The notes under the pieces are model-generated. The model made no database searches, was not told where the DNA came from, and saw nothing but the letters and a program-made list of their open reading frames with translations. Positions 11,233 through 49,563 of a DNA stretch of 64,000 bases are shown piece by piece (the stretch's first letter is position 1; every line of letters begins with the position of its first letter). The position numbers and the translations under genes are program-made. The DNA comes from Nitrosophilus labii (GTDB lineage Bacteria; Campylobacterota; Campylobacteria; Campylobacterales; Nitratiruptoraceae): the NCBI RefSeq assembly GCF_014466985.1, contig NZ_AP022826.1:186001-250000 (forward strand). Reading direction: 5' to 3'.

Positions 11233-11647
11233 CGTTTTGTACCTCGTACAATATTTTCAGCTTATGTTTTGTTGCTACATCTTTTTCTAGATATCCTATG
11301 GCATTGTCAACGTTTTTCAAAAAAGAGGCAATTGCTTCTTGAGACTTTAAAACTTTTGGAGGTCTGTGTCCCATATAGTGGGTTTGAAGCCAGTATCTTT
11401 CAAGCTCAAATCTTTTCATTTTCAAAATTATGTTTTCAAACTTTTTTCTTAATAAATGATCATAAGGAAGGTTTATAGGAATAATCTTTTTTTCTCCTAA
11501 AAATCTTATTTTGTCAAGGTAGATTTTTTGTACCGTTTTTCGATTTAGGGTATCTGCCGGGAAATTTCTATTTGCGGCGATAACAAGAGAGTCGGCATAT
11601 ATAAATGAGGCAGAAAGTATGAAAATCAACTTTATAGACCACTTCAT
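11210..11647 (-). CDS. PstS-like periplasmic binding protein (short)
   Basis: The 145-residue protein starts at ATG 11647 (M-K-W-S), chosen because AAGG lies upstream and a signal peptide follows directly; an in-frame start at 11686 would overlap the barrel gene. The N-A-D-S-L-V-I-A-A-N-R-N-F sequence and the K-I-Y-L-D-K-I-R-F-L-G-E-K segment match the phosphate-binding-like (PBP superfamily) proteins that are much shorter than PstS. It sits between an outer-membrane barrel and a sensor kinase, so it may present a ligand to the kinase rather than to a transporter. No ABC permease is nearby. The ligand is unknown. Confidence 0.65.
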   Translation of the reverse strand: MKWSIKLIFILSASFIYADSLVIAANRNFPADTLNRKTVQKIYLDKIRFLGEKKIIPINLPYDHLLRKKFENIILKMKRFELERYWLQTHYMGHRPPKVLKSQEAIASFLKNVDNAIGYLEKDVATKHKLKILYEVQNGESKPKK

Positions 11648-11655
11648 TTTTTGCC

Positions 11656-12666
11656 TTAGAACATAAAAGAGAATGAAAAAAGCCATTTATCGCTCTTTTG
11701 TATAGAGTATCGATTGTACTCACCTTTTATGGCCACATTAGGATACGGTCTGTATGTAAGGCCAAAAGTCCATATATTCTCTTCGATATTTTCACTATCG
11801 GTTAAAATATCCTCTTCATGAGTTTTATATTTTTCAAATCTTGTTATTAGGTAGTAATGTTCACTTAGATTCCAAACATTTTGTAAATAAACATCATAAG
11901 GAATTAGATTTGATGAGTCTATTTTTTTTATAGATGATTCTATCGTTAACGTATAGTTTTGTTCTATTTTTTTAAAAGCAAAAACGCTATAAATAGACTC
12001 TTTATTATCTCTTTGCCGAAAATATCCCCCGCTTACTTTAAAGATACCGTTCTTTTTTTCAAACTCTAGTGTTATACCATAATGTTTTTTGATTTTGAAG
12101 TTGTTGTAACTACTATCTATATCTTCGTTGTTTTGCAATGTTATATATAAAAAATCGAAATTTTCATTAAGAGCGAATCTGTAGCATATTCCCGAAGTAA
12201 GTTTTGGAAAGCTGTTTTCTACAATATATGGACTAGAGGTCGTATCTCTTAAAACATTTATTGGCATTATGTTCCAAAAGCCTATGGGCGAATTGAATTT
12301 GCCAATTTTAATGGTTTGATAATTATCTATATAGTAAGTTAGATTTATTCGTTCTATTTTAAAGTTAAGATTGCTATCTTCTACCTTCATAGGAGTGTTT
12401 TGGTTAATATATATATCTTTTGCTTCAAACTCTGAAACAAAATCCCATCTATCATCTTCGCCGTATAACAAAAAAGCAAGATCATCGACTAAAAAAGCCT
12501 CTTTTTCATCGCTTTTTTCATATTCTGTAGATAAATATCCTCCAAGATAGAAAGTATCGCTTATTTTGTATCCTTTGGTAAAATCATCGCTTATAGATTT
12601 TAATGGGGAAAATAGCAAAAAGGATAAAAAAAGAAGATTTGATATGAGTTTTGTATAAAATCTCAT
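11656..12666 (-). CDS. Outer-membrane beta-barrel protein (porin-like)
   Basis: The 336-residue product has a signal peptide (M-R-F-Y-T-K-L-I-S-N-L-L-F-L) and many alternating hydrophobic/aromatic strands. It ends F-S-F-S-F-M-F with a terminal Phe, the signature for BAM insertion. The start at 12666 is preferred over one at 12735, which would place 23 non-signal residues first and overlap dinB; AAGG lies before 12666. Segments such as I-K-I-G-K-F-N-S-P-I-G-F resemble bacterial porins of the OprP/DUF3373-like type, but the substrate is not clear. It heads the module with the PstS-like protein and sensor kinase. Confidence 0.75.
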   Translation of the reverse strand: MRFYTKLISNLLFLSFLLFSPLKSISDDFTKGYKISDTFYLGGYLSTEYEKSDEKEAFLVDDLAFLLYGEDDRWDFVSEFEAKDIYINQNTPMKVEDSNLNFKIERINLTYYIDNYQTIKIGKFNSPIGFWNIMPINVLRDTTSSPYIVENSFPKLTSGICYRFALNENFDFLYITLQNNEDIDSSYNNFKIKKHYGITLEFEKKNGIFKVSGGYFRQRDNKESIYSVFAFKKIEQNYTLTIESSIKKIDSSNLIPYDVYLQNVWNLSEHYYLITRFEKYKTHEEDILTDSENIEENIWTFGLTYRPYPNVAIKGEYNRYSIQKSDKWLFSFSFMF

Positions 12667-20501: not shown

Positions 20502-20894
20502 ATGATGAGTCATATGGATGTGGCACATCCCTATTTTGGTGCATTTTTACTGTTTGTAATTACTGCGGTAGCTTTTATCGCCACTACCACGGCTGCAAGA
20601 TTTGTCAGTAGAAGTCTTGCTAGACTAGATACTGAAAAACTCAAAGCTGCAATTTATGAATGCGGCCCTGAAGTTACCAAACAGCCAAATAGAATATCTG
20701 CACAGTTTTATCTAATCGCTCTTTTGTTTATTCTTTTTGATGTGGAAATAATATTTATGTTTCCTTGGGCGATTGACTTTAAGATTCTAGGATGGTTTGG
20801 TTTTGCTGAAATGATTTTATTTATACTCTTATTGGCTATAGGTTTTATATATGCATGGAGGAAAGGAGCTCTTGAATGGCACAGCATCAAGTAA
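20502..20894 (+). CDS. nuoA: Complex I subunit NuoA
   Basis: The 130-residue protein has three membrane helices and the conserved Y-E-C-G-P-E segment in the first loop followed by [19 protein letters not shown]. These identify the small membrane subunit at the quinone-site interface. AAGGAG lies 5 bp before the first of two adjacent ATGs (20502 or 20505). It is the first gene of a 15-gene complex I operon and overlaps nuoB by 19 bp. Confidence 0.96.
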
Positions 20895-21385
20895 ATTACG
20901 CTGCAAGCGGCGGTTTGCCGGTTGCTTTGACTACTGTAGACAAAATTGTAAACTGGGGAAGATCGAACTCTTTGTGGGCTTTAACTTATGGTTTGGCTTG
21001 CTGCGCTATTGAGATGATGGCATCAGGTGCGAGTAGATACGATTTTGATAGATTTGGAGTTATATTTAGAGCAAGTCCAAGACAAGCAGATGTGATGATT
21101 GTTGCGGGAACACTTACCAAAAAGCATGCTGAATTTATTAGAAGACTTTATGATCAGATGGCGGAGCCCAAGTGGGTTATCTCTATGGGAAGTTGTGCCA
21201 ATACAGGTGGAATGTTTAACACTTATGCGACAGTTCAAGGTGTAGATAGGGTTATTCCTGTAGATCTATATTTGCCAGGATGTGCTCCAAGACCGGAGAC
21301 GTTGCAGTATGCTGTAATGCTTTTGCAAAAAAAGATTAGAAAACAGTCTATTTTCCAAAAACAAAAACCAAAAAGGTTGGTATGA
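20876..21385 (+). CDS. nuoB: Complex I subunit NuoB (N2 cluster)
   Basis: The 169-residue peripheral-arm subunit carries the terminal [4Fe-4S] cluster N2. The adjacent cysteine pair is seen in [10 protein letters not shown], with the other ligands in M-G-S-C-A-N-T-G-G and L-P-G-C-A-P-R-P-E. The protein is complete. It overlaps both nuoA and nuoC, so the three are translationally linked. Confidence 0.97.
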
Positions 21386-22179
21386 TGAGACCTTATAGAC
21401 CCAAAGATAATGTTCAGAAAAAGGCCTACTATACTGATAGATTTTGGATAGCGCCAAGAATTCCTGAAGAAGATGTTTCTCAAGATAAAGTATATGCTGT
21501 GGATCTTGAAAAGATAAAAGCAAAATTCGATATTAAAAAGGCTTATATCCAAAGAGGGCAGCTTGTTATCATAATAGATCCTTCTATTAACAAAGAACTG
21601 CTTTTCTTTTTAAGAGATGAGCTTGGATATGATATGCTCATAGAGCTTAGTGCTATCGACTATCTTGCTCAAGATGGTGAGTTTGAAGTCTTTTATCAGC
21701 TGCTCTCTTTAAGCAAAAGAAAGAGACTAAGAGTAAAATGTAGAATCAAAGAGGATGAAGCGATAGAGAGTGTAAATCCGGTCTTTAGAAGTGCAGACTG
21801 GAGTGAGAGAGAGATGTATGATATGTTTGGTATTAAAGTCAACAATCACCCATACTTTAAAAGAATACTTATGCCTGATGACTGGGTTGGATATCCTCTT
21901 AGAAAAACATATCCTCTACATGGTGACGAAGCAGCACAATGGTATGAGATAGATAAGATTTTTGGAAAAGAGTATAGAGAGATAGTAGGACCAGAAATTA
22001 GAGATGCGGCGTGGATAGATAAAACCGATACTGAACAGTTTGCAAGATACGGCCATGAAGTACCAAAAGGTGCGCCATACGATAGCGAGCCTGTGAAGAT
22101 AGATTCTTTTAACGAAGATGCACCGCTTGTGGAGACATTTGATCTTAAAAAATCGAAAATTGTTGATAGAGATAGATAG
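21382..22179 (+). CDS. nuoC: Complex I subunit NuoC (30 kDa)
   Basis: The 265-residue protein is a separate NuoC, not fused to NuoD as in E. coli. The signature [12 protein letters not shown] and the following [15 protein letters not shown] are present. An N-terminal extension of about 55 residues and an acidic tail flank the core. It overlaps nuoB by 4 bp. Confidence 0.95.
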
Positions 22180-22189
22180 GAGCCTATAA

Positions 22190-23422
22190 ATGCAGCAAAG
22201 AAATAGATTAGAACCTTTTTTTGAGAACCTGGTTTTTGATAGAGATGATAACACTATGGTTGTCAACTTTGGTCCTCAGCACCCTTCAGCACACGGTCAG
22301 TTAAGGCTAATACTAGAGCTTGACGGAGAGCAAGTAGTAAAAGCTGTGCCTGATATCGGCTATCTTCACAGAGGTATGGAGAAGATGGCTGAAAATATGA
22401 TATATAACGAATTTTTACCGACAACTGACAGGATGGACTATATAGCCGCAACATCTAATAACTACGCATTTGCCTTTGCTGTTGAAAGGTTGTTGGGTAT
22501 AGAGAATGAGATTCCAAGAAGAGCAAAGGTTATAAGAACAATACTGCTTGAGTTAAACAGAATCATATCGCACCTTTTCTGGCTCGCTACACATGCACTT
22601 GATGTTGGTGCTATGAGTGTCTTTTTGTACTGTTTCAGAGAGCGTGAATATGCGATGGATTTGATGGAAGATTATTGTGGTGCTAGACTTACGCACAGTG
22701 CAGTAAGAATAGGTGGGGTGCCGTTAGATCTTCCAAAAGGTTGGCTAGAGAAACTATCTGTGTTTTTAAACAACCTTCCAAGTCAAATAGAACTGTATGA
22801 AGGTTTGCTTGATAAAAACAGAATCTGGAGAATGAGACTCGAAAATGTAGGCGTAATCCCACCTGAGATGGCAAAAAGCTGGGGATGTAGTGGCATTATG
22901 CTAAGAGGTAGCGGAATTGAGTGGGATATAAGAAAAGAGGAACCTTATGAACTTTATGATGAGCTTGATTTTGATATTCCGGTAAGTGACAGATGTGATA
23001 GTTATGGAAGGTATAAGCTTTATATGGAAGAGATGAGACAAAGTATCAAAATTATAAGACAACTTATACCGATGTATAAAGAGACGGGGCCAGAGTTGAT
23101 GGCGAAGGTTCCTCAATACATTTCTGCATCCAAAGAAGATATTATGACTCAAAACTACTCTTTGATGCAGCATTTTGTTCTAGTTACCCAAGGAATGAGA
23201 CCGCCTGTTGGAGAAGTTTATGTTCCAACTGAGTCTCCTAAAGGAGAGTTGGGATTTTTTATAAGAAGCGAAGGAGAGCCATATCCATACAGGCTTAAAA
23301 TTAGAGCACCAAGTTTTTGGCATACCGGAATATTGCAAGATTTACTTCCGGGACACTATTTGGCTGACGTAGTAACTATTATAGGTTCTACAAACATTGT
23401 TTTCGGAGAAATTGACAGATAA
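22190..23422 (+). CDS. nuoD: Complex I subunit NuoD (49 kDa)
   Basis: The 410-residue quinone-site subunit has the hallmark [10 protein letters not shown] near residue 28. H-R-G-M-E-K-M and N-R-I-I-S-H-L follow, and the C-terminus has the [15 protein letters not shown] pattern. It pairs with NuoB around cluster N2. A spacer with unusual phased repeats separates it from the nuoE-like gene. Confidence 0.96.
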
Positions 23423-23425
23423 GCA

Positions 23426-23500
23426 GGGAAGGTGAAAAGGTGGGAAGGTGAGAAGGTAAAAATAAGTCCTTCACTCCTTCACTCCTTTACTCCTTTACCC
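23426..23500. repeat. Octamer-phased inverted repeat, site 1 (inside nuo operon)
   Basis: The left arm has AAGGT four times at an 8-nt period. The right arm has TCCTTCAC twice and TCCTTTAC twice. The arms are near reverse complements, so the nuo mRNA could form a long purine/pyrimidine hairpin between nuoD and the nuoE-like gene. It belongs to a class of four similar intergenic spots in this window. Confidence 0.7.
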
Positions 23501-23511
23501 TTTAAAAAAGG

Positions 23512-23748
23512 ATGAAAATGGTTAGATATGATTTGAGACATTTAAAAGACAACTTTTATGATCGAATGATGGAACTTTTGGAAAATGAAGTTAAGCCTGG
23601 AGAGGTAGCGATATTTTTATTTGAAATTGGTGATTTTTCTCCGATCCAAAAAAGTGCTGATTTAGTAAAAGAGGCTGGTCACGAACTTCTAAATTCACTT
23701 AAGTTCAATCAGGTAGATTGGACTATAGTGGTTAGAAGAAAAGCGTAA
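23512..23748 (+). CDS. NuoE-replacing small subunit (HP1264-like)
   Basis: The 78-residue protein lies where nuoE normally does but lacks the [2Fe-2S] cysteines and thioredoxin-like fold length of NuoE. Its pattern, R-Y-D-L-R-H-L-K near the start and F-N-Q-V-D-W-T-I-V-V at the end, matches the HP1264-type protein found in complex I operons of Helicobacter and relatives. There it accompanies the loss of the NADH-oxidising NuoE/NuoF pair. It probably helps assemble or dock the alternative electron-input module. AAAAAAGG precedes the ATG. Confidence 0.82.
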   Translation: MKMVRYDLRHLKDNFYDRMMELLENEVKPGEVAIFLFEIGDFSPIQKSADLVKEAGHELLNSLKFNQVDWTIVVRRKA

Positions 23749-23761
23749 AGAGGGTGAGAAA

Positions 23762-25801
23762 GTGAGCAAAGTCTATTTTTCATGTTGGCGAGATGAATTT
23801 ATCGACAACAGAGGCAAGCCTATAGAAGAGTGGGCAGAATCATCATACAATTTTCCCGTTAATTACAATATAGATATAAACTCTAAAGCATTTATAGGAT
23901 GGGATGGATTTGCACTCTTTGATGAGAATGTAGATGTAGTTAGGCTTGCTACGGAGTATGCTAAGCAGTATCAGATCTATTCCGAAGCATGTGGAAGATG
24001 TGCGCCTGGAAGATGGGGAGGCAGAATTCTTTATGATCTATTTGATAAGATAGCCAGAGGCGAAGGTGAAAAGAGTGATGTTGAACACTTAAAAGAGGTT
24101 TCTAGAACAATGATGGAAACCAGTAAATGTGAAATAGGTAGAACTGTCCCAAGACCACTTTTGTCTATTTTAGAATATTTTGAAGATGATATAAATAGTT
24201 TGATAGAAAATAAAAAACCTTCCCCTCATTACAATGAAGATATAAACTATATTGCTAAAGTTACAGCACCATGTATGGATGCTTGTCCTGCACATGTGGA
24301 TATTCCTGCATACATTGAAGGTGTAAGAGATTTAAGATTTGACGATAGCTTGCAGGCAACAAGAAAGACTATGCCTCTTGCTCATACTTGTGGACGTGTT
24401 TGTCCTCATCCATGTGAAGATGCGTGCAGAAGGGCCAACCTTGATGAACCAATCTCTATTATGGAGCTTAAAAGGATCGGTGCAGATTTTGAAGATAATC
24501 ATGGACTTTTCTGGCTCCATCCTAAAGAACAAAAACCTTTGAATGGCAAAAAAGTAGCGATTATAGGGGCAGGCCCTGCAGGTTTAACAGGTGCTTATTA
24601 TTTGGCACTAGAAGGTGTGGCCTGTGATATATATGAAGAACTCCCTGTCCTTGGTGGTGAAGTTGCCGTTGGAGTTCCAGAATACAGAATGCCCGTTGGA
24701 AAATATAACAAAGATATAGAAGCGGTTGCATCTTTGAATGGCGTAAAGTTTATAACCGGTAAAAGAGTAACTGCCGATGATATGAGAAGATTTGAAAAAG
24801 AGTATGATGCAATACTAGTAGCAACGGGTACAAGAATATCTAAAAAAGTTAGAGCAAAAAATGAAAGAGAAGAGATTAAAGGCTATTGGGGAGCTATTAA
24901 CTTTTTGGACTGCGTAAATTTGTACGTTAAATATGGGATTCCGGTACCAAAAGAGATACAAGAACAGCAGATGCTCGATAAAGATTATGTGGATTTGACC
25001 GGAAAAACAGTTGTTTGTGTAGGCGGTGGTTTTACATCTATGGATGTTGTTAGATGTGCAGTTAGAGCTAATGCAAAAAAGGTCATTATGCTCTATCGCC
25101 GGGATGAAGCAACGATTATTAGAAATACTACTTACGAAGAGTATCATGAAGCGGTAGAAGAGGGTGTAGAGTTTATTTTCTACTCAGCTGTTGAAGAGAT
25201 TATAACAGACGAAAATGATAGACTCAAAAAGCTTAAAGTAAATAGATTTGAGTTGGTTCCAGATCCTAACGGAGGAAGACCGCAGCTTGTTAAGATTGAA
25301 GGTGCGGATTTTGAGATAGAGTGCGATTATCTTATACCTGCAGTTAGTCAAAGTGCCGATCTTTCGCATCTTCCTGAAGAGTGGGAGATCGAACTTACTA
25401 GTTGGGGAACTATAAAAACGGATGGGAAAACATATATGAGTTCAAGAAAAGGCGTATTTGCAGCAGGAGACTGCGAATATGGACCAATGACCATAGTTAA
25501 TGCTGTAGGTCAGGCTAAAAGAGCTGCTTCCGTTATGAGTAGATATGTACAAACTGGAGAAGTAACTTTGACAGATGAAGAGATTATGGAAGATCATCTA
25601 AGAAATCTAAAAGTTTATGATAAAAAAGAGAAAATTACTGGTTGGCTTCCTGGGCTTCCAAGAGTAGTTAGTGAAAAACTAACTGTTCAAGAGAGAAAAG
25701 ATAACAATAAAGAGGTCAATTTAGGTTTTACCCAGGAAGAAGCTATTGCGGAAGCTGAAAGATGTATGAGATGTTATTATATTGCTATGGTAGCTATTTA
25801 G
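23762..25801 (+). CDS. NuoF-replacing hybrid: NuoF-like Fe-S domain fused to GltD-like flavoprotein
   Basis: The 679-residue protein occupies the nuoF position. Residues about 70-150 resemble the NuoF C-terminal N3 domain, but the cluster motif reads C77-G-R-C80-A-P-G83: the third ligand Cys is Gly, while C123 is kept. The FMN/NADH Rossmann part of NuoF is absent. Instead residues 165-640 form a GltD/NfnB-type oxidoreductase: two Cys clusters (C-M-D-A-C-P-A-H; C-G-R-V-C-P-H-P-C-E-D-A-C), an FAD site G-A-G-P-A-G-L and an NAD(P) site V-G-G-G-F-T-S-M-D. It likely feeds electrons from NAD(P)H or another donor to NuoG. The start at GTG 23762 is 13 bp after the previous gene. Confidence 0.85.
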   Translation: MSKVYFSCWRDEFIDNRGKPIEEWAESSYNFPVNYNIDINSKAFIGWDGFALFDENVDVVRLATEYAKQYQIYSEACGRCAPGRWGGRILYDLFDKIARGEGEKSDVEHLKEVSRTMMETSKCEIGRTVPRPLLSILEYFEDDINSLIENKKPSPHYNEDINYIAKVTAPCMDACPAHVDIPAYIEGVRDLRFDDSLQATRKTMPLAHTCGRVCPHPCEDACRRANLDEPISIMELKRIGADFEDNHGLFWLHPKEQKPLNGKKVAIIGAGPAGLTGAYYLALEGVACDIYEELPVLGGEVAVGVPEYRMPVGKYNKDIEAVASLNGVKFITGKRVTADDMRRFEKEYDAILVATGTRISKKVRAKNEREEIKGYWGAINFLDCVNLYVKYGIPVPKEIQEQQMLDKDYVDLTGKTVVCVGGGFTSMDVVRCAVRANAKKVIMLYRRDEATIIRNTTYEEYHEAVEEGVEFIFYSAVEEIITDENDRLKKLKVNRFELVPDPNGGRPQLVKIEGADFEIECDYLIPAVSQSADLSHLPEEWEIELTSWGTIKTDGKTYMSSRKGVFAAGDCEYGPMTIVNAVGQAKRAASVMSRYVQTGEVTLTDEEIMEDHLRNLKVYDKKEKITGWLPGLPRVVSEKLTVQERKDNNKEVNLGFTQEEAIAEAERCMRCYYIAMVAI

Positions 25802-25811
25802 GGGCGCGTAC

Positions 25812-28085
25812 ATGATAAAGTTTTATATTGACGGACGTGAAGTGACAGCTAAAAAAGGCGAAACTATACTTCAAGTTGCTAGAAGAGAGGGGATATATAT
25901 CCCAACAATGTGTTATTTGCCTAAAGTTAAGCCGATCGAATCTTGCCGTCTCTGCGTTGTGGAAGTAGAAGGTGTAGAGGGATTTGTTCTTAGCTGTCAA
26001 ACACCTCCAACACCAGATATTAAAGTAAAAACAAATTCTGCAGAGCTTTTTACTCATAGACAAAATATCATGAAACTATATGATGTAAATCATCCGCTTG
26101 AGTGTGGGGTTTGTGATAAAAGCGGTGAGTGTGACCTTCAAAATAAAACTCTTGAGTTTATGGTGAACTCTCAAGAATTCACTGCAAAAGATCAAAATAG
26201 AAAGATAAAAGATTGGAACTATATTCAATATGATCCTTATTTATGTATTTTGTGTGAAAAGTGTGTTCATGTTTGTAATGAAGTAATAGGTGATGATGCA
26301 ATTGAGATAGAATACGGCGGATACAAATCTCAGATAATTCCAAAAGATGCACCTACACTTGATTGTACTTTTTGCGGTGAGTGCATCGCTGTCTGCCCTG
26401 TTGGTGCATTGATAAGTAAAGATTTTCAATATACTTCTAATGCCTGGGAGTTAAACAGAGTTCCGGCAGCTTGTGCCCACTGTAGCGCTGCTTGTCATCT
26501 CTATTATGAAATTAAACACACATCTACTGACAATCCAGAACCTAAGATCTACAGAGTAAAAAATGAGTTTGAATTTGCAAATCTTTGTGGTGCCGGTAGG
26601 TTTGGATTTGATTTTGAAAACAGGGCAAAAAAAGATGAAAATGCCTTTAAAAATGCGCTTACAGCTTTCAAAAAAGCTGATACAATAAAATTTAACTCTA
26701 TTATTACAAATGAAGAGGCTTTGATACTTCAAAAATTGAAAAACAGATTTGGATTAAAACTTATAAATAACGAAGCAAAAGCGTATCAAAAGTTTTTGAA
26801 AAAATATAGCGAGTTTAGTGGTAGAACTCTTTACTCTGCAGATTTGGAAGATATAAGAAATAGTGATTTTATAATAATTTTTGGGTCTATGGTGGCAACC
26901 GATAATCCAGCCGTTAGATATGCTATGACATTTTCAAATAGAAAAAGAAACAGTGAAATAATAAATTTTCATCCTATGGAAGATGAGCTATTAAAAAATG
27001 TTGTTACTAAGTTTGTAAGATATGAAGTTGGAACAGAAGAAGGCGTTATGGCAATGTTGGCTAACGCTCTTCTTTCTAAAGAAGATAAAGAAAATATTGA
27101 TAAAGAGTGGTTTGAAGATTTAGATATAGGATATCTTAGTGCTGAGAGTAATGTAGGGGAAGAAGAGATAGAGGATGTTCTAAAGAGGCTTACAAGAAAG
27201 AGAAGAGTAAGAGCAAAGAAGTCGACTCTTATATTAGGCGAGGATTTATACACACATCCTAGGGCTGAGAATATAGCTAGATTAGCTGGGTTGATAGATA
27301 GGTTTACAGATTTTGATGTGATGATTATACCTTCTAAGACAAATACACTTGGAGTTTCGTTGATATGTGATTTGGATGAGGAAGAGGGAGATTTTGTTAT
27401 AGGTTATAACACAGACGGTGATTTTGTATTGAGTGCGTTGGGTGATGGCGATTTGGATATGCCGGCACTCAATCAACAGGAGGGTACATTTACAAATATT
27501 GACAAGAGGGTTGTACCTACAAATGTTGCGTTACCGTACGAAGGGTACGTGCTTAATGATATAGCTAGGGCTTTGGGGGTTAGCGATAAGGATTATACGA
27601 TAGAGTTTACAAAAGAGCTACCTAAAGAGAAGGGTTTTAAAGCTATAGATTTTGATGAGTTGCCGAATCATTTTACAAATGCCGGTCAAGAGGAGAGAGG
27701 TTATATATTAGAGTCAAATAAGGTGGCAATTAGTAGGGAGAAAGTTGAGGAGATAGAGGAGTTGCCTGAGTTTAACGGTGTTGTGATATATAGATGTGAA
27801 CCAGTATTACAATTTAGCCCATTCACCGCCAAAACACACCAGCTAAACTTCTCTTCCGAGCTAGTAGGTTCCAAACAGTTTTCTATTGCTGCTAAACTGA
27901 AAGATGGCGATGAAGTAGTTGTAAAAACTTCTTTTGGAGACCTAAAAAGGGTGTTTAGAATTGACACAAGCCTTAAAGGAACTATAGGTCTTTTAGAAAC
28001 TTTTGATATGGGATTAAGCTACTTTGATATACTATCGGATTATCGATACCAAGTGATAAAAATTGAAAAAGCGAGCGGACAATGA
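25812..28085 (+). CDS. nuoG: Complex I subunit NuoG, first copy
   Basis: The 757-residue protein has the N-terminal [2Fe-2S] ferredoxin domain (S-C-R-L-C-V-V-E), the H-P-L-E-C-G-V-C-D motif and two further ferredoxin-type Cys sets (C-I-L-C-E-K-C-V-H-V-C; C-T-F-C-G-E-C-I-A-V-C-P). An N7-type set follows (C-A-H-C-S-A-A-C with a fourth Cys in N-L-C-G-A-G). The C-terminal half is molybdopterin-oxidoreductase-like. About 210 residues near the C-terminus are encoded by a DNA segment identical to one in the next gene; its AGG/TTG-rich codons differ from those flanking it. It overlaps the next nuoG by 4 bp. Confidence 0.92.
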   Translation: MIKFYIDGREVTAKKGETILQVARREGIYIPTMCYLPKVKPIESCRLCVVEVEGVEGFVLSCQTPPTPDIKVKTNSAELFTHRQNIMKLYDVNHPLECGVCDKSGECDLQNKTLEFMVNSQEFTAKDQNRKIKDWNYIQYDPYLCILCEKCVHVCNEVIGDDAIEIEYGGYKSQIIPKDAPTLDCTFCGECIAVCPVGALISKDFQYTSNAWELNRVPAACAHCSAACHLYYEIKHTSTDNPEPKIYRVKNEFEFANLCGAGRFGFDFENRAKKDENAFKNALTAFKKADTIKFNSIITNEEALILQKLKNRFGLKLINNEAKAYQKFLKKYSEFSGRTLYSADLEDIRNSDFIIIFGSMVATDNPAVRYAMTFSNRKRNSEIINFHPMEDELLKNVVTKFVRYEVGTEEGVMAMLANALLSKEDKENIDKEWFEDLDIGYLSAESNVGEEEIEDVLKRLTRKRRVRAKKSTLILGEDLYTHPRAENIARLAGLIDRFTDFDVMIIPSKTNTLGVSLICDLDEEEGDFVIGYNTDGDFVLSALGDGDLDMPALNQQEGTFTNIDKRVVPTNVALPYEGYVLNDIARALGVSDKDYTIEFTKELPKEKGFKAIDFDELPNHFTNAGQEERGYILESNKVAISREKVEEIEELPEFNGVVIYRCEPVLQFSPFTAKTHQLNFSSELVGSKQFSIAAKLKDGDEVVVKTSFGDLKRVFRIDTSLKGTIGLLETFDMGLSYFDILSDYRYQVIKIEKASGQ
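27217..27847 (+). repeat. 631-bp direct repeat shared by the two nuoG genes, copy 1
   Basis: From AGAAGTCGACTC to CACCAGCTAAA this segment matches 29709-30339 (offset 2492) and the encoded proteins agree throughout, while the flanks diverge abruptly. Five of its eight Arg codons are AGG, unlike the AGA-dominated flanks. This indicates recent gene conversion or a shared imported segment. Confidence 0.92.
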
Positions 28086-30568
28086 GTGAGAAAATAAAGA
28101 TAATTATAGACGGCAAAGAGTGTGAAACTCGTGATGGTGAGTTTATACTAAATGTTGCGAGAGCTAACGATATTTTTATTCCAGCTATATGCTATTTGAC
28201 AGGTTGTTCGCCTACACTTGCTTGTAGATTGTGTCTTGTCGAGGCTGACGGCAAACAGGTATATGCTTGTAACGCTAAAGCCAAAGATGGGATGAATGTG
28301 GTTACCGTAACTGAAAATATTATAAAAGAGCGACGAGCGATTATGGAGGTTTATGACGTAAACCATCCATTGGAGTGCGGTGTTTGTGATCAAAGCGGTG
28401 AATGTGAGCTACAAAACTACACTTTAGAAATGGGTGTAGATGAACAACACTATGCCATCAGAGATACCAACAGACCTATTAAAGATTGGAATTTTATACA
28501 TTATGACGCTTCGCTTTGTATTGTTTGTGAAAGGTGTGTAACTGTATGTAAAGACCTAATAGGTGATTCTGCGCTAAAAACCGTACCAAGAGGCGGAGAC
28601 AAGCTTCCTAAAGAGCTCAAAAATGAGATGCCAAAAGATGCCTATGCAATGTGGAACAAGCTTCAAAAATCGATAATAGGTGCTGTTGCTGGAGAAGAGC
28701 TCGATTGTACATGGTGCGGTGAGTGTATTGCTGTTTGTCCGGTTGGTGCTTTAGTTAGTAAAGATTATATGTACACTACAAATTCTTGGGAACTTAACAA
28801 AATTCCAGCTTCTTGTGCACACTGTAGTGCTACATGCCATCTGTTTTATGAAACAAAACATACGTCAATTAACAATCCAGAGCCTAAACTCTACAGAGTA
28901 ACAAATGAATTTCATTATCAGCCTTTATGTGGTGCAGGTAGATTTGGATTTGATTTTGAAAATAGAGCAAAAAAAGATGAAAAAGCATTTGAAAATGCGA
29001 TAAACGCTTTCAAAAAAGCTGATACTATAAAATTTGACTCATATATAACAAATGAAGAGGCTTTGATACTACAAAAATTAAAAGAGAAGCATGGTTATAA
29101 ACTTATAAATCAAGATGCGTTAAACTATAAAAAATTTTTAAACACATATTCAAAATTTAGCGGTTCGTCTTTATATAGCGCAGATGTTAAAAATGTACAC
29201 GAATCCAATTTTGTAGTATCTATTGGAAGTCAACTTAAAAGCGACAATCCAAGAGTAAGATTTGCCTACAACAATGCTGTTAAAATGAACAAAGGAGGGG
29301 GTATATATTTTCACCCACTAAAAGATTCTGTGATAGAGTCTCTTGGTAAGAGTGTAGTTCCAGTATATCATAAACCTTTAAAGGAGGAAGCGGCTCTATA
29401 TCTTATTTTGGAAATGTTCGCAGATAAAGAGAAACTTCCTAAAAAGATCTCCTCATATCTTGAATCTTTTCACACCCAAATAGATAAAGAGATTGAAGAG
29501 ACAATCAAAGAGAAAGTAACGCAAAAAGTCAAAAAGAAAGTGAAAGATGAAGAGACTGGAGAAGAGAAAGAGATAGAAGTTGAAGAGACAAAAATAGTTC
29601 CAAAAAAAGTTAAGAAAACTATCAAAGTTGATCATACAAAACTTTTGGATATGCTTGATGCACCGTCAAATTTTATGGATAAGTTGGAAAAAGTTTTATC
29701 AAAAAGAGAGAAGTCGACTCTTATATTAGGCGAGGATTTATACACACATCCTAGGGCTGAGAATATAGCTAGATTAGCTGGGTTGATAGATAGGTTTACA
29801 GATTTTGATGTGATGATTATACCTTCTAAGACAAATACACTTGGAGTTTCGTTGATATGTGATTTGGATGAGGAAGAGGGAGATTTTGTTATAGGTTATA
29901 ACACAGACGGTGATTTTGTATTGAGTGCGTTGGGTGATGGCGATTTGGATATGCCGGCACTCAATCAACAGGAGGGTACATTTACAAATATTGACAAGAG
30001 GGTTGTACCTACAAATGTTGCGTTACCGTACGAAGGGTACGTGCTTAATGATATAGCTAGGGCTTTGGGGGTTAGCGATAAGGATTATACGATAGAGTTT
30101 ACAAAAGAGCTACCTAAAGAGAAGGGTTTTAAAGCTATAGATTTTGATGAGTTGCCGAATCATTTTACAAATGCCGGTCAAGAGGAGAGAGGTTATATAT
30201 TAGAGTCAAATAAGGTGGCAATTAGTAGGGAGAAAGTTGAGGAGATAGAGGAGTTGCCTGAGTTTAACGGTGTTGTGATATATAGATGTGAACCAGTATT
30301 ACAATTTAGCCCATTCACCGCCAAAACACACCAGCTAAAAGAGTGTGGAGGATTGTATGCAAGCGAAACATTTATGAAAGAATTTGAGCTAAATGAGGGC
30401 GATAAAGTTAAAATTCAAAAAGAAAACAATACCATTACATTAGAAGTTAAACTTGATGATAAAATAGGTAGTGGAGCATATATACCTACCTTTGATAAAA
30501 AGATAGATGCCGGAAAAATCTTCGGCAATGGATATAGATTTACTGAAGTAAACATTGAAAAGGTGTAA
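28082..30568 (+). CDS. nuoG: Complex I subunit NuoG, second copy
   Basis: The 828-residue paralogue keeps every Fe-S motif of the first copy: S/A-C-R-L-C-L-V-E, E-C-G-V-C-D, C-I-V-C-E-R-C-V-T-V-C, C-T-W-C-G-E-C-I-A-V-C-P and C-A-H-C-S-A-T-C with a following N7 Cys. It has about 30 extra residues before the second ferredoxin set, plus a Lys/Glu-rich insert of about 60 residues (29470-29640). The 631-bp segment identical to copy 1 follows. Tandem nuoG genes are known in some Campylobacterota; division of labour between them is unresolved. Confidence 0.92.
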   Translation: MSEKIKIIIDGKECETRDGEFILNVARANDIFIPAICYLTGCSPTLACRLCLVEADGKQVYACNAKAKDGMNVVTVTENIIKERRAIMEVYDVNHPLECGVCDQSGECELQNYTLEMGVDEQHYAIRDTNRPIKDWNFIHYDASLCIVCERCVTVCKDLIGDSALKTVPRGGDKLPKELKNEMPKDAYAMWNKLQKSIIGAVAGEELDCTWCGECIAVCPVGALVSKDYMYTTNSWELNKIPASCAHCSATCHLFYETKHTSINNPEPKLYRVTNEFHYQPLCGAGRFGFDFENRAKKDEKAFENAINAFKKADTIKFDSYITNEEALILQKLKEKHGYKLINQDALNYKKFLNTYSKFSGSSLYSADVKNVHESNFVVSIGSQLKSDNPRVRFAYNNAVKMNKGGGIYFHPLKDSVIESLGKSVVPVYHKPLKEEAALYLILEMFADKEKLPKKISSYLESFHTQIDKEIEETIKEKVTQKVKKKVKDEETGEEKEIEVEETKIVPKKVKKTIKVDHTKLLDMLDAPSNFMDKLEKVLSKREKSTLILGEDLYTHPRAENIARLAGLIDRFTDFDVMIIPSKTNTLGVSLICDLDEEEGDFVIGYNTDGDFVLSALGDGDLDMPALNQQEGTFTNIDKRVVPTNVALPYEGYVLNDIARALGVSDKDYTIEFTKELPKEKGFKAIDFDELPNHFTNAGQEERGYILESNKVAISREKVEEIEELPEFNGVVIYRCEPVLQFSPFTAKTHQLKECGGLYASETFMKEFELNEGDKVKIQKENNTITLEVKLDDKIGSGAYIPTFDKKIDAGKIFGNGYRFTEVNIEKV
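29709..30339 (+). repeat. 631-bp direct repeat shared by the two nuoG genes, copy 2
   Basis: This is the partner of 27217-27847. The sequence appears identical over the whole length; the C-terminal tails beyond it (after K-T-H-Q-L) are unrelated in detail. Confidence 0.92.
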
Positions 30569-30571
30569 GCT

Positions 30572-31564
30572 ATGAGTGGTGCATTTATCATAGAGACAAT
30601 TATCAAGATTTTAATAGTTTTGGGTCTATTTTCGGCTCTTGCAGGTTTTGCTACATACATTGAGCGTAAAGTCCTTGCTTTTATGCAAAGAAGGCTTGGA
30701 CCAATGCATGTTGGACCTTATGGTATTTTACAGGTATTGGCAGATGGTATAAAACTCTTTACTAAAGAGGATTTTGTTCCACAAAATGCAGTAAAATCGA
30801 TTTTTAAAATAGCACCTGTTATCACTGCTGCCACTGCATTTATGGCTATGGCCGCAATACCGATGTTCCCTGAGTTTACGATTGGTGGGTATACTGTTAG
30901 ACCGATTATTTCAGATATAAATGTTGGACTTTTATATGTTTTAGGTGTTATGGCCGTAGGTATGTATGGGCCACTTTTAGCAGGTATGGCTTCTGGAAAT
31001 AAATGGTCGTTGATAGGTGCGGCAAGGACAACAATCCAGCTGCTTAGCTTTGAAGTTGTTACGGGACTTTCAGTTCTCGCCCCACTAATGATGGTAGGAT
31101 CGCTTTCATTGATCGATATAAACAACTATCAGTCAGGAGGAATGGAAAACTGGTTAATTTGGAGCCAGCCGGTAGCATTTGTGCTTTTCTTGATTGCTGG
31201 GTTTGCTGAGACAAACAGAACTCCTTTTGACCTTCTAGAACATGAAGCGGAAGTAGTTTCTGGTTATGCAACAGAGTATTCTGGAATGAGATGGGGTATG
31301 TTCTTTATTGGAGAATATGCAAACCTTTTTACAGTATCATTCTTAGTTAGTATAATCTTTTTAGGCGGTTTTAACGATTGGGGATTTATACCTGGAGCGA
31401 TTGCGATACTTTTAAAAGTATTTTTCTTTATATTTTTGTTCTTATGGACAAGAGCGGCTTGGCCTCATATCAGACCAGATCAATTAATGTGGTTATGTTG
31501 GAAAGTTTTGATGCCAGTTGCGGTTATCAATATAGTAATTACCGGTATCGTTTTGATGATATGA
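30572..31564 (+). CDS. nuoH: Complex I subunit NuoH
   Basis: The 330-residue membrane subunit has about eight helices. It has the conserved E-R-K-V-L-A-F-M-Q-R-R-L-G-P and G-P-Y-G-I-L-Q near the start. F-A-E-T-N-R-T-P-F-D-L-L-E-H-E-A-E-V-V-S-G carries the quinone-channel acidic residues. It is complete, beginning 3 bp after nuoG2. Confidence 0.96.
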   Translation: MSGAFIIETIIKILIVLGLFSALAGFATYIERKVLAFMQRRLGPMHVGPYGILQVLADGIKLFTKEDFVPQNAVKSIFKIAPVITAATAFMAMAAIPMFPEFTIGGYTVRPIISDINVGLLYVLGVMAVGMYGPLLAGMASGNKWSLIGAARTTIQLLSFEVVTGLSVLAPLMMVGSLSLIDINNYQSGGMENWLIWSQPVAFVLFLIAGFAETNRTPFDLLEHEAEVVSGYATEYSGMRWGMFFIGEYANLFTVSFLVSIIFLGGFNDWGFIPGAIAILLKVFFFIFLFLWTRAAWPHIRPDQLMWLCWKVLMPVAVINIVITGIVLMI

Positions 31565-31574
31565 GGGGGATGTA

Positions 31575-32186
31575 ATGAGTTTAGAACAGTTTAAAAACAG
31601 ATATGTTGGATCACAAAATTACAAGCTTATAGAGATAGAAGAATATCCAGCAACACCATGGGAAAAGTTTAAAAGAGTAGTAAAAAGAACATTTAAAACC
31701 GAGTTGTTTGTAGGTCTAAAAATTGTATTCATGGAGATGGTTAGGTTTAATATCCATACAATACAATATCCAAAAGAGAAAATTCCTATTGGACCAAGAT
31801 ATAGAGCTATTCATAAACTATTAAGACTTCTTGAAAGCGGTAATGAAAGATGTATCGGTTGTGGATTGTGTGAAAAAATTTGTATAGCAAAATGTATAAG
31901 AATAGATACTAAAATAGATGAAAATGGAAGGAAAGTTCCGACCGAATATACTATTAATTTCGGAAGATGTATATTTTGCGGATATTGTGCTGAAGTATGT
32001 CCCGAATTAGCAATAGTACATGGTCCAGATTATGAAAATGCCAGTGATCAAAGAGCTCATTTTGCTTTGAAAGAGGATATGCTTACTCCAATAGATAAAT
32101 TAAAAGAGCAGAAAGAGTATCAAGGTTTTGGAGCACCGACCCCGGAAGCAGATAAGCTTATCAAAAAAACACCATTAGCCTATTAA
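31575..32186 (+). CDS. nuoI: Complex I subunit NuoI
   Basis: The 203-residue protein has two ferredoxin-type [4Fe-4S] motifs, C-I-G-C-G-L-C-E-K-I-C and C-I-F-C-G-Y-C-A-E-V-C-P, which bind N6a and N6b. The first motif is followed by I-A instead of the common proline. It links the NuoG arm to NuoB. Strong GAGGGGG precedes the ATG. Confidence 0.95.
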   Translation: MSLEQFKNRYVGSQNYKLIEIEEYPATPWEKFKRVVKRTFKTELFVGLKIVFMEMVRFNIHTIQYPKEKIPIGPRYRAIHKLLRLLESGNERCIGCGLCEKICIAKCIRIDTKIDENGRKVPTEYTINFGRCIFCGYCAEVCPELAIVHGPDYENASDQRAHFALKEDMLTPIDKLKEQKEYQGFGAPTPEADKLIKKTPLAY

Positions 32187-32197
32187 AAGGGATAGAC

Positions 32198-32752
32198 ATG
32201 ATAGAAGCTATTGCATTTTATACATTTGCAGCTTTGACTATAGCAATGTTTACAATCACTGTGATGAGTAAGAACGCATTATATGCAATGAGTGCGTTGG
32301 TGGCTGGAATGATTTTTATTTCAGGATTCTTTTTTCTTCTTGATGCAGATTTCTTAGGTGTTGTTCAGATCATCGTTTACACTGGTGCAGTAATGGCTTT
32401 ATATGCATTTGGAATGATGTTTTTTGATAGTGCTAAAGATGTAAAAGAGAATAATACAAGTAATAAAGTAGTATTTCTGTTAAGTGGAATGGCAGCGCTT
32501 TTACTTGTCGTAATATTTGTTGCACCGATCATTTCAGACAAGGTTCATGCACTATATCCTATGAAAGATGGAATTGGAAATGCCGAAGCTGTTGGTATTG
32601 TTTTATTTACTAAATATCTAGTTCCATTTGAAGTTGCAGCAGTTATGCTTTTGGTTGCAATGATTTCTGGAATTATTATGGCAAGTAAAAGAATGGATGA
32701 AAGCTTAACGCTTAAAGATGATGACGAAATTCAAGAAAAGGCAGTGCAATGA
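32198..32752 (+). CDS. nuoJ: Complex I subunit NuoJ
   Basis: The 184-residue protein has five predicted membrane helices. The typical Q-I-I-V-Y-T-G-A-V-M-A-L-Y-A-F segment in helix 3 includes the pi-bulge region implicated in coupling. A charged C-terminal tail follows the last helix. It overlaps nuoK by 4 bp (ATGA). Confidence 0.94.
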   Translation: MIEAIAFYTFAALTIAMFTITVMSKNALYAMSALVAGMIFISGFFFLLDADFLGVVQIIVYTGAVMALYAFGMMFFDSAKDVKENNTSNKVVFLLSGMAALLLVVIFVAPIISDKVHALYPMKDGIGNAEAVGIVLFTKYLVPFEVAAVMLLVAMISGIIMASKRMDESLTLKDDDEIQEKAVQ

Positions 32753-33051
32753 TAACACTAAGTCACTATTTGGTATTATCGGCTATACTTTTTTGTATAG
32801 GCTTAGTTGGAATCTTAAGAAGAAAGAACTTATTAATGTTATTTTTTGCGACTGAGATGCTATTAAATGCCGTAAATATTGGCTTTGCTGCAATTTCTAA
32901 ATTTTATATGGATTTGACTGGTCAGCTTTTTGCTTTTTTTATTATCGCTATTGCGGCTAGTGAGGTGGCCGTAGGGCTTGGTTTACTGATAATTTGGTAT
33001 AAAAGAGTTGGAAGCATCGATCTTGATACGATGCAATCAATGCACGGTTAA
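32749..33051 (+). CDS. nuoK: Complex I subunit NuoK
   Basis: The 100-residue protein has three membrane helices. It keeps the membrane glutamates in F-A-T-E-M-L-L-N-A-V-N and in A-A-S-E-V-A-V-G-L, which are essential for proton pumping in characterised enzymes. It has standard length. Confidence 0.95.
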   Translation: MITLSHYLVLSAILFCIGLVGILRRKNLLMLFFATEMLLNAVNIGFAAISKFYMDLTGQLFAFFIIAIAASEVAVGLGLLIIWYKRVGSIDLDTMQSMHG

Positions 33052-33061
33052 GGGAAGGCAC

Positions 33062-34951
33062 ATGGAAAAATATCTATATCTTGCACTGTTTTCACCATTA
33101 GTAGGATCACTTTTTGCAGCTATGTTCGGTGCTCAGCCTAAAAAGCTGTTTACCGGAATTGTAGCTTCAGCACTACTATTTGTTTCACTATTTAGTTCAC
33201 TCTATTTGCTTAGCTATGTTACATCAACAGGAAATATTATCCATGTCAAACTTTTTGACTGGATTAATGTCGGCGGGCTTGATATACCATTTGGCTTTAT
33301 AGTAGATCAAGTATCAGTTATTATGATGGTTACTGTTACTACCGTTTCGGCTCTTGTACATGTCTATTCTATAGGTTATATGAAATATGACGAAGGTTTT
33401 AATAGATTTTTCTCTTATCTTTCAGCCTTTGTTTTCTCTATGATGATTCTTGTTATGAGTGACAATTTTGCAGGTCTATTTATAGGTTGGGAGGGCGTTG
33501 GTCTCTGTTCTTGGTTACTAGTTGGTTTTTGGTACAAAAAGCCAGATGTTACAAGAGATATTAACCCTTCTATAAGTCCTTCATGGGCAGCTAATGAAGC
33601 TTTTATAATGAACAGAATAGCAGATCTTGGAATGCTTATCGGTATCTTCTTAATCTATTGGAATACAGGTTCGTTACAGTATGATGTAGTATTTAAAGAT
33701 GTTTCAGCGTTAAATATCGGTTTAGTTAGTTTAATAGGGATTTTCCTATTCATTGGTGCTATGGGAAAATCAGCGCAGTTCCCTCTTCATACTTGGCTTG
33801 CTGACGCTATGGAAGGACCTACGCCTGTATCGGCACTTATACATGCTGCTACAATGGTTACGGCCGGGGTATATTTGGTTATAAGAGCAAATCCAATTTA
33901 TAGTACTATCCCAGACGTTGGTCTTCTTATAGCAACTATTGGTGCATTTGTTGCTGTTTTTGCTGCTTCAATGGCATTAGTTAACCAAGACCTAAAAAGA
34001 ATAATTGCATATTCAACATTAAGCCAACTTGGTTATATGTTTGTAGCCGCAGGTTTAGGCGCATACTGGATTGCTCTATTTCACCTTATGACTCATGCAT
34101 TTTTTAAAGCACTTCTTTTCTTGGGTGCTGGTAACGTAATGCATGCAATGGATGATGAACTTAACATATTTAAAATGGGCGGCCTTGCAAAAACAATGAA
34201 ATGGACTGCTATTATGATGATCATAGCATCGCTTGCTCTAGCCGGAATATATCCATTTGCAGGATTTTTCTCTAAAGATAAAATATTAGAAGTTGCATTT
34301 GATTCAGAGCACTATTTACTATGGTTTATGTTGTGGCTTGGAGCCGGTATGACAGCATTTTACAGTTTTAGACTTGTAATGCTAGTGTTCTTTGGTGAAG
34401 AGAGATATAAAAAATATGGATTTCATCCTCATGAAGCTTATTGGTATATGTTAGTAGCTATGTTGCCTCTTGCAATTTTGGCAATTATATCTGGATTCTT
34501 TGAAGAGAGCTTTGAACATTTTGTTACTATGTTATTGCCTGAATACCACTTTAATGTTCACGGTATAACTGTTGTTGCTTTGATAGGTATAACTACTATG
34601 ATTGCGCTATCGGGTATAGGCTTTGCTGTATATAAATATAGTAGAGGCGGCTTTAGCGAAAAATGGAAAGAGACTTTTATTTATAAATTATTGATAAATC
34701 AGTATTATATTCCTATTATCTATGAGAAAGTTTTCTCAAAGCCGTATGCTGAATTATCACGAATTGCGTGGAAAGAGTTGGATTTAAGAGTGGTTGATGC
34801 TACTGTTGATTTTATTGCAAACGTAATTTACAAATCTGGGTTTAAAGGTAGAGTTGTTCAAAGCGGTAACCTTTCAAGTATGCTTAAATGGATGGTTATT
34901 GGTCTTATTGCTCTACTAGTATTAGCTATAGTTTATAGTCCGGTAAGGTAA
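33062..34951 (+). CDS. nuoL: Complex I subunit NuoL
   Basis: The 629-residue antiporter-like subunit is taken from ATG 33062 (M-E-K-Y-L-Y-L), 10 bp after nuoK. The in-frame start at 33008 would overlap nuoK and add non-hydrophobic residues. The conserved G-W-E-G-V-G-L-C-S-W-L-L and H-A-A-T-M-V-T-A-G-V-Y are present, as is the long C-terminal lateral-helix region. It is the distal proton-pumping module. Confidence 0.95.
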   Translation: MEKYLYLALFSPLVGSLFAAMFGAQPKKLFTGIVASALLFVSLFSSLYLLSYVTSTGNIIHVKLFDWINVGGLDIPFGFIVDQVSVIMMVTVTTVSALVHVYSIGYMKYDEGFNRFFSYLSAFVFSMMILVMSDNFAGLFIGWEGVGLCSWLLVGFWYKKPDVTRDINPSISPSWAANEAFIMNRIADLGMLIGIFLIYWNTGSLQYDVVFKDVSALNIGLVSLIGIFLFIGAMGKSAQFPLHTWLADAMEGPTPVSALIHAATMVTAGVYLVIRANPIYSTIPDVGLLIATIGAFVAVFAASMALVNQDLKRIIAYSTLSQLGYMFVAAGLGAYWIALFHLMTHAFFKALLFLGAGNVMHAMDDELNIFKMGGLAKTMKWTAIMMIIASLALAGIYPFAGFFSKDKILEVAFDSEHYLLWFMLWLGAGMTAFYSFRLVMLVFFGEERYKKYGFHPHEAYWYMLVAMLPLAILAIISGFFEESFEHFVTMLLPEYHFNVHGITVVALIGITTMIALSGIGFAVYKYSRGGFSEKWKETFIYKLLINQYYIPIIYEKVFSKPYAELSRIAWKELDLRVVDATVDFIANVIYKSGFKGRVVQSGNLSSMLKWMVIGLIALLVLAIVYSPVR

Positions 34952-34962
34952 GGAGAAACTAA

Positions 34963-36489
34963 ATGAGTTATATTTTATCAGTATTGGTCTTTTTCCCGGC
35001 CCTTGCGGGGTTGTTAGGATTTATCGTTAAAAAAGATAGTATAAGAGCTTATGGTATTACCGTAGCGGCTATAGAGTTTGTGTTATCACTATGGCTATGG
35101 CTGAGTTTTGATAGCTCAAACGGCGGTTTTCAGTTTGTAGAGTTGATTCCATTGATTCCGCAGTTTGGCATAAATTATTATTTAGGTGTAGATGGTATAT
35201 CGCTATTTATCGTTATATTGTCTACTTTTATAACATTAATAGGTTTGATTTCATTAACTATTGAAAATAATTTAAAAAATCTTATAGTCTCTCTTCTATT
35301 TTTAGAGATGACTATGGTTGGTGTTTTTGTTTCACTAGATGCGGTATTGTTTTATATCTTTTGGGAATTATCATTAGTTCCGATGTTGTATATTATCGGT
35401 TACTGGGGTAGTGAGCTTAGAATTTATGCATCAATTAAGTTTTTTCTATATACCTTTACCGGATCGTTAATAATGCTTGTAGGTATGTTATATCTTGCCT
35501 ATTCATACTATTTAGCAACAGGAACCATAAGTTTTGCAATAACAGATTGGCATAAACTAATACTGCCTTACGATACTCAAATTTGGCTTTTTGTAGCATT
35601 TTTTATTGGATTGGCTATCAAAGTGCCAATGTTTCCGTTTCATACTTGGTTACCTTATGCACATGGTCAGGCACCGACTATAGGTTCAGTGATATTGGCA
35701 GCTGTACTTCTAAAAATGGGTACTTACGGATTTGTTAGATTGTCATTACCAATATTTCCTGATGCTTCAGTAGCGGCTATAATACCTGTGGCTATTCTTT
35801 CACTTATTATGATTATCTATACAGCTATGGTCGCTTATGCTCAAGAGGATATAAAGCAAGTAATCGCTTATAGCTCAATTTCCCACATGGGTGTTATTGT
35901 TTTAGGTACTTTTGCTATGAACGTAGAGGGTATTGCTGGTTCTATATTTTTAATGCTAAGCCATGGTATCGTAAGTGGTGCTCTGTTTATGCTGGTTGGA
36001 AATATATATGATAGAAGACATACTAAACTTATAAAAGAGTTTGGGGGGCTTGCTTCAGTTATGCCTAAATACGCCACTATATTTGGAATTATGCTAATGG
36101 CCTCTGTTGGACTTCCACTGACAATAGGATTTGTTGGAGAGTTCTTGAGTCTACTTGGATTTTATAAAGTCTCTCCTGCATTAACGTTATTAGCTGGAAC
36201 TTCAATAATTTTAGGCGCTGTTTATATGCTTAGAGTCTATAAAGAGAGCTTTTTTGGTCCATTAACAAATGAAAAAAATAAAAACCTCACCGATTTAAAC
36301 GCTAAAGAATTGACATCATTGGTTCCTTTAGTACTAGTAGTTGTTTGGTTAGGAGTATATCCTAAGCCTGTACTTGGTCCTATTGATACTAGTGTTAAAA
36401 GTCTTGTAGAATTGATGGAGAAAAAGGCAATAACAAAAGAAGCGAAAGAGTTGTTTAGCACAAATAGAGTAGAATTGGAGGCGAAATAA
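34963..36489 (+). CDS. nuoM: Complex I subunit NuoM
   Basis: The 508-residue antiporter-like subunit has the conserved membrane Glu in [13 protein letters not shown] and helix-breaking [12 protein letters not shown]. Its A-Y-S-S-I-S-H-M-G motif is typical. It shares its last base with the nuoN start codon. Confidence 0.96.
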
Positions 36490-37973
36490 TGGAGCCGATT
36501 AAAGTAAGCTTAGAATCGTTAAATCTAATAACCTTAGCTCCTATGCTTATTGCAGTTGCTGGAGGATTGGTTATTTTATGTATAGATTTGATAAAAGAGA
36601 ATTTGCATAAGTCGTTGTACGTAATGCTTTCTATTTTGTTCTTATTTATAGATTTGGGGGCCATTATCGGACTGGATGTAAATGAAAGAGGTTTTTTTGA
36701 TGTTATGTTAATAGATGGTATTGCAATACTTTCACAAATAATTATAGTTGTTGCCTCAATGCTATTTATACCTTTAGCATTAACATCTAAAAGATTTCAT
36801 GAATTCAGTCTTCCAGAGTTTTTTGCGCTTTTTTTATTTATGATAGCCGGTTTTCAGTTTATGGTTGCAACAGACAACTTGATTTTGATATTTGTTGGTT
36901 TAGAAACAGCAAGTTTAGCGCTATACACATTAATAGCTATGCATAATAGAGAGAAGAGCTTTGAAGCCGCTATTAAATATTTTACGATGGGAGCTTTGGC
37001 CGCCGGTTTTTATGCTATGGGATCAATGATTATATATGCTTTGACCGGAAGTGTAGAACTATATAAGATTGCTGAAGTATTGGCTGATAGAGGATATGAA
37101 CCGATTTGGGCTGTTCTTGCAGCAGTAGCATTTATGATTGCTGCTATTGGTTTTAAACTTTCTATGGTCCCTTTTCATACCTGGACTCCGGATGTTTATG
37201 AAGGTGCAAGCGCCGCTTTGGCTGGTTATATGTCTGTAGTACCAAAAATAGCAGGATTTATAGTAGCCATAAGATTTTTCGAATTTTTAATACATAGTGA
37301 TGTTACTTGGGTAAGAGATATATTGTATATAGCTGTTGTTGTAACTATGACTTTTGCCAATATCGTTGCTTTGGTTCAGGACGATGTAAAAAGAATGTTA
37401 GCTTATAGTTCCATCAGCCATGCAGGTTTTGTTATGGCGGCAATAATGATAGGAACTACACAATCTAACAGTGCTCTATTTTTATATTGGGTCCTTTTCT
37501 TGTTCACAAATCTAGGCGCTTTTACAATGCTTTGGATTTCAAGACATAAAAGTACAATTTGGCATAAGAGATTTGACCATCCATACGAAAAATTCTCAGG
37601 ACTTGTTCATATAATGCCGGTAGCTGCAACCATAATGGCAATTTTTATGCTTAGTCTTGCAGGTGTCCCCCCATTTAGCCTTTTTTGGGGAAAATTATAT
37701 GTAATGAGTTCTGCAGTTAATGCTGGATATATAGTATTAGCTTTGATTATGGCTATAAATAGTGCAATAAGTGCATACTACTATCTAAAATTGATTGTTT
37801 ATATGTTTATGAGAGAGCCTATAGTAGATAGCAATACCGTATATTTTAAAAATGCCTCACTTTCACTTAAGACTATAGTAGGCTTGTCAGCTGTGGCTAC
37901 TATACTATCTGTTGTTTTTATTTCGCCTTTGATGGAGTATATAACTCATTATGTTAGTATAAGCGGTTTTTAA
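36489..37973 (+). CDS. nuoN: Complex I subunit NuoN
   Basis: The 494-residue antiporter-like subunit carries [25 protein letters not shown] and A-Y-S-S-I-S-H-A-G. It closes the operon. A strong hairpin overlaps its stop and the stop of the convergent miaA. Confidence 0.96.
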
Positions 37974-46714: not shown

Positions 46715-46810
46715 AGAGTCTAAGATAATTTTTATAGGGAGTGTAAATATAACTGTGTAAATCCTTATAAAAAGATTAGATAAAATTAAAGAATAAAAAG
46801 GATTTACACA

Positions 46811-49429: not shown

Positions 49430-49563
49430 GGTTTTAAGGGCTTTAGGTGGTTTACACAGTTTATTTTACAGTCCCTTTTTATAGTCCATAGCTACTATAG
49501 TTTTATAGTTTGTAGGTAGTGAAGTTAAATATAGTATATTCTTTAGCGAAAAGCTATATCGAT

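Follow-up and report, generated by a model that had tools for sequence, protein, structure and literature searches.

Evidence for segmental concerted evolution of tandem nuoG genes in Nitrosophilus labii and its relatives

Gene conversion between bacterial paralogues has been described in several systems. In Salmonella, the two copies tufA and tufB are kept similar by conversion; large sequence differences block conversion tracts, mismatch repair limits the process, and loss of repair raises the frequency of tuf conversion by a factor of about two hundred to a thousand (PMC5485169). The RF1/RF2 genes (prfA/prfB) are ancient bacterial paralogues in which conversion is nearly confined to one domain, domain 3 (PMC4530459). 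Within the Campylobacterota, the bab and homA/homB paralogue pairs of Helicobacter pylori are reported to be linked with gene conversion and concerted evolution (PMC2795765, PMC4552749). No paper on nuoG gene conversion in the group studied here was found in the literature searched. We analyzed a 64,000-nucleotide stretch of the Nitrosophilus labii genome (the window) that carries two tandem nuoG genes sharing an identical block. As judged from comparison of the sequences, this block, a segment of an ancient tandem pair of nuoG paralogues, very probably undergoes concerted evolution by recurrent, presumably non-reciprocal interlocus gene conversion. Gene conversion itself is a familiar process; here it has been acting for a very long time on a single segment of an old gene pair.

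The tandem nuoG genes and their shared block

The pair lies in a nuo operon with the order nuoA, nuoB, nuoC, nuoD, a GltD-like flavoprotein, nuoG-A, nuoG-B, nuoH, nuoI, further ORFs, nuoL and beyond (Table 1). The start of nuoG-B overlaps the end of nuoG-A by 4 bp, and both proteins score above the NF006305 cut-off of 591 bits, which places them in the curated NuoG family. The place of nuoEF is occupied by the GltD-like NAD(P)-binding flavoprotein (23762-25801), whose N-terminal stretch matches the end of NuoF; it may possibly serve as an electron-entry module.

Table 1. Features of the nuoG pair and its surroundings, in window coordinates
Feature	Coordinates	Strand	Description
nuo operon around the pair	20502..37973	+	NCBIfam matches for ten genes and ORF map
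nuoG-A (first nuoG)	25812..28085	+	757 aa; NCBIfam NF006305 (NuoG) 954 bits; Pfam Fe-S domains
Homogenised block, nuoG-A copy	27217..27847	+	codons 470-678; identical to 29709-30339
Unconverted nuoG-A 3' end	27848..28085	+	44% nt identity to nuoG-B 3' end
nuoG-B (second nuoG)	28082..30568	+	828 aa; NCBIfam NF006305 1240 bits
B-specific insert, absent from nuoG-A	29462..29629	+	about codons 461-516 of nuoG-B
Homogenised block, nuoG-B copy	29709..30339	+	codons 544-752; identical to 27217-27847
Unconverted nuoG-B 3' end	30340..30568	+	A/B identity comparison

A sequence-only reading of the window had described an exact 631-bp identity with sharp edges between genes that had otherwise diverged to the level of paralogues, and both points were confirmed. 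Base-by-base extension of the match gave 631 bp with 0 mismatches, ending exactly at the limits given in Table 1. The two copies lie in the same codon frame of their genes at a spacing of 2492. Upstream of the block, nuoG-A and nuoG-B share 60.6% of nucleotides and 51% of amino acids, and downstream 44% and 24%, respectively. The longest run of identical codons between the two genes is 209, compared with at most 18 in 2000 shuffles.

The whole 2.09 Mb genome contains these two copies of the block only. A genome-wide habit of homogenising genes was considered and rejected, as most other repeats of 99-100% identity found by self-comparison of 464 kb looked like mobile elements, a call inferred from copy pattern and transposase-like ORFs. 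As separate observations, the repeats at 3703-5038 and 46737-49475 are about 95-100% identical to several other genome sites and resemble mobile-element (IS) copies, and L150 carries a 195-bp exact direct repeat (9966-10160 and 11945-12139), unusually long for an insertion, around a transposase-like ORF (10190-11968).

Recurrence of the block among relatives

The family of the source genome (f1), a family of vent bacteria, was represented by 22 sampled genomes, including a metagenome-assembled genome (MAG) labelled Nitratiruptor, and both nuoG copies were fully assembled in ten of them. A comparison with the nuoG pairs of relatives, proposed in the sequence-only reading, showed the same block in nine of these ten genomes, 94.4-100% identical within each genome and with edges at or near the same alignment columns. 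Between most f1 species, the block is 23-30% different (about 70-77% identity), so that copies within a genome resemble each other more than they resemble those of other species, the pattern of concerted evolution; the source genome and its sister species G002 differ by 4%. The nuoG pair also occurs in other families of the order. One of these, the non-sister family f10, shows the same block, whereas the region is not homogenised in 64 pairs outside f1 and f10; over all pairs other than those of f1 and f10, its A/B identity averages about 56%. The two-gene members of f5 are not homogenised according to the A/B alignment; the same holds for those of f7, judged from the unequal scores of the two copies only. 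Several further f1 and f10 contigs terminate within the block (G004, G013, G017, G019, G021, G063, G123 and G030) or at its left edge (G011), as expected if an exact repeat breaks short-read assemblies.

Phylogenetic trees gave the same picture. In the tree of the upstream part, A and B form two clades with a support of 100, and the block tree contradicts this flank tree, as concerted evolution would have it: A pairs with B by genome in 10 of 10 f1 genomes, mostly with starred support, and the A and B copies of the f10 genome also pair. An AU test rejects a single f1 A-clade for the block (p = 2e-6). This genome-wise pairing requires that every homogenised species underwent one or more conversions once it had separated from its sister, from which we infer about ten conversion events in f1 as a lower bound. 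The earlier claim of conversion between the copies is therefore strongly supported by within-genome identity and block trees recurring across the family. The block is a case of long-standing concerted evolution, not of a single event or an import, and its homogenisation is best read as being as old as f1. In the rpoB tree, f10 groups with f20, f7 and f5, and a clade of f1 and f10 is rejected (p = 7e-5). Since f10 is not sister to f1, the block probably arose twice, an account slightly more parsimonious than a single origin followed by losses. Trees based on nuoG mix histories in this group.

Silent sites behave in the same manner. Between the copies of homogenised genomes, block dS is 0.01-0.25, as concerted evolution predicts. 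Comparisons between species gave 0.14 in the closest pair and about 0.6 in the second closest, and the remaining pairs tested ranged from about 1.0 to saturation. The sequence-only reading had named silent differences between the copies of relatives as evidence against conversion; such differences are clear in G018 (L053) only, the single fully assembled f1 pair in which the two blocks are plainly divergent (77.7% nucleotide identity, 14% protein difference, saturated dS of about 2.0 and dN of 0.094). G018 is a natural escape from homogenisation and shows the outcome without conversion. Its dS and dN values indicate that protein selection does not require identity; its divergence is that of ordinary constraint tolerating differences, so the identity elsewhere comes from conversion and not from protein selection. 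As a further observation, dS between the source genome and G002 is 0.06-0.15 in the block and 3' ends (27217-28085 and 29709-30568) and 0.36-0.50 upstream, about 3-fold lower in the former, and G007 versus G009 shows the same trend of lower silent divergence in the block and 3' ends than upstream.

Codon usage and alternative explanations

The block had also been credited with a codon habit of its own, which was borne out. AGG encodes five of its eight Arg residues and GAG 18 of its 21 Glu residues, and its third-position G/(A+G) of 0.51 exceeds that of 384/384 genome windows (0.29, sd 0.068; z 3.2), the baseline being 209-codon windows drawn from a 464 kb sample of this genome. Third-position C is not raised (0.18 vs 0.25). 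All four members of the genus that were measured carry this G-ending bias, as do G005, G007 and G009; it is weak in G006 and lacking in G008, G012, G014, G021 and f10. The bias is real and lineage-specific, and it is no mark of foreign origin.

GC-biased gene conversion might have produced this codon bias, an explanation that concerns the bias only and is compatible with concerted evolution of the block. The block's G3 excess averages +0.125 in homogenised genomes and +0.001 in 66 others (Mann-Whitney p = 1.6e-4, uncorrected for kinship), as such a process might yield. Nevertheless, we consider it unlikely. Only G rises and C does not (p = 0.87), and the codon bias thus lacks the two-sided signature of GC-biased conversion, in which both would be raised. 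Moreover, several homogenised or probably homogenised genomes have no G3 excess in the block, and polarised block changes show no clear excess. GC-biased conversion was accordingly rejected as the general cause of the bias.

From the same codon usage, unlike that of the flanks, the sequence-only reading had suggested that conversion possibly followed import of a foreign segment. A recent import into one copy with later spread to the other, for which codon usage above every genome window might speak, was not supported and is very improbable, because the block tree follows the family, with the source block grouping with that of its sister species (100/99), and because the bias is common to the four genus members measured and to three further genomes but missing in other homogenised lineages. 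Among the loci compared, no block donor outside the family was closer than G002, contrary to what a recent horizontal import should leave behind.

Even less credible is an assembly artefact, in which one copy was pasted over the other while the true copies differ. The evidence does consist of assembled sequences, and several of the relatives are short-read MAGs; however, independent assemblies of at least eight species share the block, each with species-specific sequence, and six of those species (besides the source genome) were assembled in 1-2 contigs. An artefact would not place the edges almost identically in one genome after another, nor would it produce identities of an intermediate level (94-99%). 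Finally, purifying selection alone, to which the well-conserved block protein (78-83% amino acid identity between species in most of f1) might point, has almost no chance of being the explanation, since silent sites have been homogenised too, being identical or nearly so within genomes and different or saturated between species, and the G018 copies have diverged in protein.

Direction, limits and meaning of the probable conversion

The direction of conversion can be read from one congener, G001 (L171, contig C77). Its nuoG-A has A-type residues to about codon 262-270 and B-type residues after that, giving the order of A-type part, B-type part including the B-specific insert, block and A-type end. 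A 103-nt exact match to the B copy runs to the contig end in B. This tract reads clearly as conversion from B to A that reaches about 0.8 kb further than in other genomes. The founding event in f1 leans toward the same direction: diagnostic residues of the f1 block number 7 B versus 2 A, or 17 B versus 8 A in the comparison with the Hydrogenimonas-like group. In the tree, the f1 block takes a moderately supported position intermediate to the A and B clades, which favors neither direction.

The edges of the block lie approximately where good homology ends, as seen from the drop of outgroup A/B protein identity on both sides: it is 0.06-0.27 just to the left, mostly 0.4-0.6 within the block (with one dip to 0.15), and 0.12-0.41 to the right. 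The B-specific insert, where outgroup A/B alignments are gapped at B residues 461-520 and the AlphaFold model predicts a long beta hairpin (464-519), lies left of the block and contributes to the nonhomology near that edge. In the nuoG-B model (mean pLDDT 69, moderate), the block is predicted to start at strand 545-549 and to stop before the last 76 residues, a C-terminal part modeled as mostly strand-rich, and the block could fairly be described as one subdomain. This structural placing depends on the moderate-confidence model, because sequence mapping onto solved NuoG gave no domain placement beyond the Fe-S part and Foldseek, where NuoG/Nqo3 and formate dehydrogenases were matches to the model as a whole, gave no residue ranges.

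In the proposed course of concerted evolution, an early conversion, with B as the likelier donor, would have created an identical island in the f1 ancestor, and RecA-type repair between copies 2.5 kb apart would then keep restoring identity. Conversion would be confined to the well-aligning part of the paralogues, and the edges may stay put because too little homology exists beyond them, with the B-specific insert and poorly alignable sequence on the left and the fast-diverging C-terminal part on the right. Wider conversion may also be purged by selection, since A and B have come to differ in their Fe-S halves. It is doubtful, although conceivable, that the block was captured independently in two non-sister families because conversion is favored rather than merely tolerated; the two NuoG proteins would then share one working domain that benefits from being identical, but have Fe-S halves that need to remain distinct. 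In a profile search of 17 genomes in which the positive controls were detected, no MutL exceeded the cut-off, and the score of the MutS1-like protein fell short of its family cut-off. The missing MutL probably makes recombination between mismatched sequences easier, a role that can be permissive only, given that MutL is also missing in non-homogenised relatives and outgroups.

Recombination between the two blocks would delete 2492 bp in frame, and the sequence-only reading had predicted a gene fused in this way. An intact in-frame gene composed of A-upstream part, block and B-downstream part is present in the MAGs G014 (f1) and G088 (f10), and no B-upstream part was found elsewhere in either assembly. 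The prediction is thus matched by sequence, yet short-read assembly could make the same join, and the fused genes may be false joins since both MAGs are fragmented short-read assemblies; their structure is suggestive of the predicted 2.5 kb deletion. In general, short-read assemblies break, or may falsely fuse, at the nuoG pair.

With the nuoG pair, a bacterial housekeeping operon provides a clean natural example of segmental concerted evolution. About ten species with mostly constant edges, the escaped G018 for control, a single expanded tract and perhaps a second origin make it possible to test what determines where conversion tracts end and how long homogenisation can persist in lineages lacking MutL. 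Like tufA/tufB, it consists of two copies kept similar by conversion; however, the tuf genes are alike over their whole length and 762 kb apart (PMC5485169), whereas only one block of old, otherwise divergent tandem genes is homogenised here. The Helicobacter pylori pairs encode outer-membrane proteins at the cell surface, under host pressure and within one species, whereas the nuoG case concerns a core respiratory subunit and spans an entire family. RF1/RF2 resembles the nuoG pair in the restriction to one domain and in that the same place was hit independently in two lineages (PMC4530459). For RF1/RF2, few ancestral events were inferred from trees (PMC4530459), whereas the nuoG block is identical now and has been renewed in nearly every species checked.
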